Shown: piece after piece, positions 47,431 to 47,911 of the stretch
Layout: every line of letters begins with the position of its first letter
How positions within the stretch are numbered: the stretch's first letter is position 1
Assembly: GCA_021927905.1 (NCBI GenBank)
Contig: BLLK01000062.1
Coordinates: forward strand, 2,108,001 to 2,172,000
Reading direction: 5' to 3'
Length of the DNA: 64,000 bases
From: Chaetoceros tenuissimus
Taxonomy: Eukaryota; Bacillariophyta; Thalassiosirophyceae; Chaetocerotales; Chaetocerotaceae
Program-made: the position numbers and the translations under genes
The notes under the pieces: model-generated
Database searches by the model: none
What the model saw: the letters and a program-made list of their open reading frames with translations, nothing else
What the model was told of the DNA's origin: nothing

Positions 47431-47911
47431 TCAATTCTTTCCTCCACGAAGTTGAAGTACCATATGAATTGTTGCCCCAGCACTGATATTGTAGGAGTCA
47501 AGAGTTCTATCATCAGTCCTATAATTTTGAATTTAGAAGAGAGTCGAATTAAGTCAAATCAACTTTGGATACAATGTTCAAAGATTGCCATCTCGTACTT
47601 ACAACTGCTTTCCGGAAAAAATGAGACGGATCTGATCTACCTGAATACCTTCCTTTTCTTGAAGTGCCTGCTTTACAGCGAGTACTTGATTCTCTGGTTC
47701 AAAGTTGAAAGATTGCTTGCGCCCAGTCAAAGTCTTGATAAATAGCTATTGGTAATATTTCAGATTGGGTAAAGCAAGGGTGAGTAGCAGTACCATCAAC
47801 AAAGACGACGATAGATACGAGCAAAAAGAAACATGACAATGCATACTTCTCCCTCCGACGCCTTCATTGCTACGATTTCCTAGGTCCTACTTTTGTAAAG
47901 CTTACCTGCAT
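47431..47911 (-). CDS. Divergent ubiquitin-like protein (78 residues, ends GGKN)
   Basis: Three small exons, 47906-47911 (ATG CAG), 47603-47745 and 47431-47518, with GT-AG introns of 160 and 84 nt; 237 coding bases. The spliced protein aligns without gaps to ubiquitin: [11 protein letters not shown] at the start, [20 protein letters not shown] in the middle, and [10 protein letters not shown] at 67-76 followed by Lys-Asn. By hand, about 42 of 76 positions match ubiquitin as I recall it. Conserved: Leu8, Ile44, His68, Val70, Lys6, Lys27, Lys33, Lys48. Changed: Lys11 to Arg, Lys29 and Lys63 to Ala, Arg72 to Gln (NEDD8 has Ala72). The GlyGly followed by two residues implies C-terminal processing and conjugation. 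Neither ubiquitin nor typical NEDD8. Confidence 0.88.

Follow-up and report, generated by a model that had tools for sequence, protein, structure and literature searches.

Within the window analysed here, a 64,000-nucleotide stretch of the genome of the diatom Chaetoceros tenuissimus, a small gene encodes a ubiquitin-like protein with glutamine at position 72, where ubiquitin has arginine. The question raised by this locus is whether it specifies a further protein tag with a conjugation route of its own or a modifier of a kind already known. The initial annotation had read Gln72 as a hint of a separate route or of lost charging. NEDD8 is a small protein modifier by which a large class of ubiquitin ligases is activated, and we consider it likely, with a probability of roughly 80%, that the gene encodes the NEDD8 of this diatom in a fast-evolving, Gln72-type form. 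Probably, the protein is a divergent representative of a known family rather than a new tagging system.

Splicing of the proposed exons and alignment of the product confirmed the three-exon structure with agreeing phases (Table 1). The spliced coding sequence spans 237 nt, encoding 78 residues followed by a stop codon, with both introns of the GT-AG type, and no frameshift, internal stop or gap was found across the 76 columns aligned with ubiquitin. A codon score trained on six open reading frames from the window gave +18 bits in frame versus −34 and −26 out of frame; none of 2000 shuffles equalled the in-frame value, and 17 of 2000 draws from the background attained the synonymous-choice score. 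The G+C content of the window ranges from 37.6 to 40.1% over sixteen 4-kb blocks. The neighbouring genes, encoding a PQ-loop protein (45975-47090, plus strand) and a UPF0176 and rhodanese domain protein (48284-49456, plus strand), are not ubiquitin-related. Since the frame is open, the phases agree, the splice sites are ordinary and codon use is coding-like, the gene appears to be real and probably not a pseudogene, as had been proposed.

Table 1. Positions of the features of the gene (window coordinates) and of ubiquitin-type loci elsewhere in the genome (contig:position).
Feature	Position	Strand	Description
Exon 1	47906..47911	-	6 nt; ATG CAG, Met1-Gln2
Intron 1	47746..47905	-	160 nt; GTAAGC...ATAG
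Exon 2	47603..47745	-	143 nt; from Leu3 through base 2 of codon 50; matched by own-genome protein search
Intron 2	47519..47602	-	84 nt; GTAAGT...ATAG; 31% G+C
Exon 3	47431..47518	-	88 nt including stop codon TGA (47433-47431); matched by own-genome protein search
Gln72 codon, CAA	47452..47454	-	E1 gate residue; VLQLRGG placed at 47441-47460
Gly75-Gly76	47440..47445	-	Conjugation end; from spliced translation and VLQLRGG placement
Lys77-Asn78	47434..47439	-	Tail needing removal; from spliced translation
L001-L010			Two ribosomal fusions (L40, S27a); L003 behind a leader; L004-L008 diverged ubiquitins; L009 and L010 ubiquitin domains in longer frames
L004	C48:1418092		Diverged ubiquitin copy
L005	C32:2322710		Diverged ubiquitin copy
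L006	C32:2592260		Diverged ubiquitin copy
L007	C18:349965		Diverged ubiquitin copy
L008	C34:730464		Diverged ubiquitin copy

Because the Pfam ubiquitin model matches the protein with an E value of 2.5e-24, its likeness to ubiquitin is, on this sequence comparison, not due to chance. The alignment with ubiquitin is gap-free and 42 of the 76 residues are identical, among them the hydrophobic patch (Leu8, Ile44 and Val70), His68, Lys48 and the LRGG end with its diglycine. Ubiquitin differs in having Arg72 and the chain sites Lys11, Lys29 and Lys63, in place of which the diatom protein carries Gln, Arg, Ala and Ala, and the gene is neither repeated nor fused to a ribosomal protein. Every residue named in the initial annotation was confirmed, as was the Lys-Asn tail. 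With the NEDD8/RUB1 proteins of plants, animals and yeast the protein shares a non-arginine residue 72, Glu32, Gly64 and a diglycine followed by a tail; it differs from them in having Gln72 instead of Ala or Thr, Gln31-Glu32 versus the NEDD8 hallmark Glu31-Glu32, ubiquitin-like Phe4 and Val26, and no Glu12. The features expected of a NEDD8 that it presents are a ubiquitin fold by homology, a residue 72 without positive charge, and a diglycine preceding a putatively removable tail (GG-Lys-Asn-stop).

Overall similarity speaks against the NEDD8 reading. Identity to Arabidopsis RUB1 (34/75) and to yeast Rub1 (33/76) is lower than to ubiquitin, and the 60 PDB matches listed of 393 were all ubiquitin or ubiquitin-derived, with none named NEDD8. 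At the six columns that separate the two RUB1s from two ubiquitins, the protein has the NEDD8 residue at two (32 and 64), the ubiquitin residue at three (4, 26 and 31) and neither at one (12). In a tree of 12 rows and 76 columns, in which one of the nine inner branches exceeded the program's support threshold, the two RUB1s were separated from the other ten rows, including the diatom protein, with support of 86/83, which is below that threshold. For comparison, published identities of the Plasmodium falciparum NEDD8 are 46-52% to the NEDD8s of model organisms and 51% to the ubiquitin of the parasite itself (PMC7677368), and 57% to the mammalian NEDD8 (PMC6837540). A fast-evolving NEDD8 might give identities such as those seen here; a diverged ubiquitin equally might.

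According to PMC3731359, residue 72 is the gate for E1 choice, in agreement with the initial annotation; in a phage selection with the ubiquitin E1 (UAE) only Arg72 was kept, and the arginine expected of a UBA1 substrate is absent from the diatom protein. UAE can nevertheless cross-react with NEDD8 (PMC3731359), and the gate is therefore not absolute. The annotation had contrasted ubiquitin with an Ala72 NEDD8, which proved too narrow: in a 160-member set, PMC7677368 reports Gln72 in apicomplexan NEDD8s and Ala or Thr in the others, and names as a NEDD8 criterion a residue 72 without positive charge. Plasmodium NEDD8 is likewise described as having Gln72 (PMC6837540). The human NEDD8 E1 (NAE) tolerates Gln72 in vitro, less well than Ala72: when NAE was used for selection, Gln was recovered infrequently, affinity for NEDD8 A72Q was 27-fold lower than for Ala72, and in the crystal structure of NEDD8 A72Q with NAE the glutamine is bonded to UBA3 Arg190 (all from PMC3731359).

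By published description, the closest likeness is to the NEDD8 of Apicomplexa (Plasmodium, Toxoplasma and Cryptosporidium). The T. gondii and C. parvum proteins have Gln-Glu at positions 31-32 (PMC7677368), so that Gln31, Glu32 and Gln72 are combined in the diatom protein as published for these two species. Apicomplexan NEDD8s also have a short or absent tail and low identity to other NEDD8s, as does the diatom protein with its 43-45% to the two RUB1s. P. falciparum differs in that its NEDD8 has no tail, whereas the diatom gene encodes Lys-Asn, and in that no NEDP1 (SENP8) was found there according to a review (PMC7600729), whereas the diatom has a SENP8 match. The review does not mention residue 72.

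With the ubiquitin family model, 35 matches were obtained in the genome, the best 25 of which were translated and read. An Arabidopsis RUB1 query gave 23, and no stand-alone NEDD8 was apparent among the ten strongest (L001-L010, E≤3.8e-15). The same query matched the gene in the window more weakly than these ten, in one stretch of 48 residues at 44% identity (E 2.8e-6) and one of 28 at 46% (E 0.16). A V-L-x-L-R-G-G DNA pattern, which also admits Phe in place of Leu and Ser in place of Arg and is blind to genes with an intron inside the motif, as in L003, occurred at 30 places in the genome versus 40 for the reversed control; most of the 30 are therefore due to chance. The actual letters of eighteen do not translate to VLxLRGG (Phe71, Phe73 or Ser74), and five others, when examined, were not ubiquitin-like. 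The remaining seven lie in ubiquitin-like genes (L001, L002, L004, L005, L006, L009 and the gene in the window), with Arg at position 72 in five, His in one and Gln in the window gene alone. One pattern match, on a 116,465-base contig, looks by eye like a chloroplast protein. Taken together, the family model (25 of 35 ubiquitin-domain matches read), the RUB1 query and the DNA pattern, which are blind to assembly gaps and very short exons, revealed no NEDD8 gene beyond the one in the window.

Among the other ubiquitin-type genes, L003 (C41:147382) encodes ubiquitin after a signal-peptide-like leader, and L034 (C32:1599884) is a full-length second ubiquitin-type E1. Both would fit SELMA, the plastid import machinery of diatoms.

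Much of the NEDD8 cascade is encoded in the genome (41,027,912 bases in 68 contigs searched). For the NAE1 candidate on C54, APPBP1/NAE1 made up the top five of 28 PDB matches, and the eight best of 13 for the UBA3 candidate on C16 were all UBA3, the other five being SUMO E1 at E values of about 1e-11; the UBA3 E2-binding domain was matched with E 2.4e-23. A UBC12 gene on C54 is 65% identical over 97 residues to the Arabidopsis sequence, and at E≤1e-22 it has four PDB matches, every one a NEDD8 E2. We also found a DCN1-type domain on C17 (E 4.4e-18), a SENP8 gene on C54 (just two PDB matches at E≤1e-5, both to SENP8), and a UCHL3 gene on C34 with UCH-L3 as its best PDB matches. The Cullin_Nedd8 domain occurs in four places with scores of 88-104 bits (cut-off 36.9; two of 14 control genomes were matched, both under the cut-off), and all four carry the M-K acceptor motif.

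Two of the cullin ends (L028, C43:61115; L030, C43:119674) are near-identical and lie on opposite strands some 58 kb from each other, with the neddylation site VRTMK in one and VGTMK in the second, whose open frame is shorter. The search for Ulp1/C48 proteases gave 15 matches, with equal scores for L056 and L057 and very similar sequences for L060 and L061; some of the 15 look like a repeat or mobile-element family, not deconjugating enzymes.

E1-type enzymes were surveyed through the ThiF family; being so general, this family predictably also matched in 12 of the 14 control genomes, which are bacterial and archaeal. The 14 matches gave 12 loci, representing 10 genes, which by eye are UBA1, the second ubiquitin-type E1, UBA2, UBA3, NAE1, ATG7, two MOCS3/UBA4-like genes and two short ones without a family name (L038 and L039); of these, UBA3 and NAE1 were compared with solved structures. 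The idea of a separate E1 was dropped after reading the 12 loci.

The recognition pockets of these enzymes were read by spacing. Placed on the PDB chain by N-A-R, Tyr at +17 and Tyr at +131, the human UBA3 residues Asn188, Arg190, Tyr207 and Tyr321 correspond to Gln, Arg, Phe and Tyr in the diatom, and the Leu just before 207 is replaced by Ser. The yeast Uba1 pocket (Asn574, Gln576, Tyr586 and Asp591) is intact in both L033 and L034, named by eye as UBA1 and the second ubiquitin-type E1, respectively. We infer that the diatom NEDD8 E1 has a residue able to bond Gln72, and that the ubiquitin E1s of this genome appear suited to Arg72.

No relative emerged from viral or prokaryotic contigs. In viral contigs, a protein scan gave nine pattern matches with no relative by tblastn, and an H-x-V-L-Q-L-R-G-G DNA pattern occurred in six contigs, none ubiquitin-like by eye and five reading as one related sequence with stops. 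The same pattern occurred in 38 prokaryotic contigs, whose reads share the motif by construction. In blastp against the diatom protein, 36 of the 38 matched at E≤1, 28 of these over at most 15 residues and eight over 21-67, the best having E 7e-5 over 29 residues (L071). All 38 were judged to be chance matches from the last 40 residues shown of each. Among the titles and opening lines of abstracts listed, we found no report of NEDD8 or neddylation in diatoms or in Phaeodactylum tricornutum, and nothing was found linking NEDD8 with LQLRGG. Gln72 outside Apicomplexa may be new in print.

We favour NEDD8 because Gln72 occurs together with Glu32 and Gly64, the protein ends in a tail, the pathway genes are present and no other candidate was found. 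The main competitor, which we regard as unlikely, is that the protein is among several diverged paralogues of ubiquitin encoded here, has lost Arg72 and is unconjugated or serves as a binding module. It would agree with the closer identity to ubiquitin and with the position of the protein on the ubiquitin side of the weakly supported split, and other diverged copies do depart from Arg72, L004 having His there and L008 Asn; L007 carries Gln at position 74. Yet L004-L008, some of which stand behind long upstream reading frames, end in a GGGKK tail resembling the one on the S27a fusion and retain the Gln31-Asp32 and Glu64 of ubiquitin, unlike the gene in the window with its Gln-Glu, Gly64, two introns and Lys-Asn tail. 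A paralogue would also leave the NEDD8 cascade without any modifier that we could find.

It is very unlikely that the protein is a third, distinct modifier served by a separate E1, as initially proposed. Residue 72 does differ from that of ubiquitin and of the NEDD8s of plants and animals, the protein is divergent in sequence, and the two short ThiF-family proteins could be assigned to no family; but the other eight ThiF genes were recognized by eye as known E1-type families, and Gln72 is already a NEDD8 state in Apicomplexa. Nor is the hint of a separate route or lost charging supported, given that the human NEDD8 E1 accepts Gln72 in vitro, that much of the cascade is encoded and that the searches revealed no other NEDD8 gene. 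That the locus is a pseudogene or unexpressed relic is the least credible possibility: it would account for the divergence of the sequence, but is at odds with 76 uninterrupted columns, two intact introns and coding-like codon choice.

If the gene does encode NEDD8, UCHL3 and/or SENP8 would trim the Lys-Asn tail, and the NAE1-UBA3 E1 would adenylate Gly76, with Gln72 hydrogen-bonded to UBA3 Arg190. UBC12, a DCN1-like protein and a putative RBX-type RING would then attach the modifier to the conserved cullin lysine, an attachment predicted to activate cullin-RING ubiquitin ligases. Ubiquitin E1s would disfavour the protein, since it lacks Arg72. More tentatively, and with somewhat more doubt than confidence, we propose that Gln72 NEDD8 occurs in diatoms as well as in Apicomplexa, by common ancestry or repeated change, that the UBA3 pocket changed alongside with Arg190 kept, and that native recognition in these organisms works through the Gln72-Arg190 contact originally observed with an engineered human pair.

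These results provide a candidate NEDD8 for an organism in which much of the pathway, but no conventional NEDD8, was found. Searches for NEDD8 that require Ala72 will miss such genes. The finding would extend Gln72 beyond Apicomplexa and would make a cultured alga available for testing how a modifier that naturally carries Gln72 is distinguished from ubiquitin.
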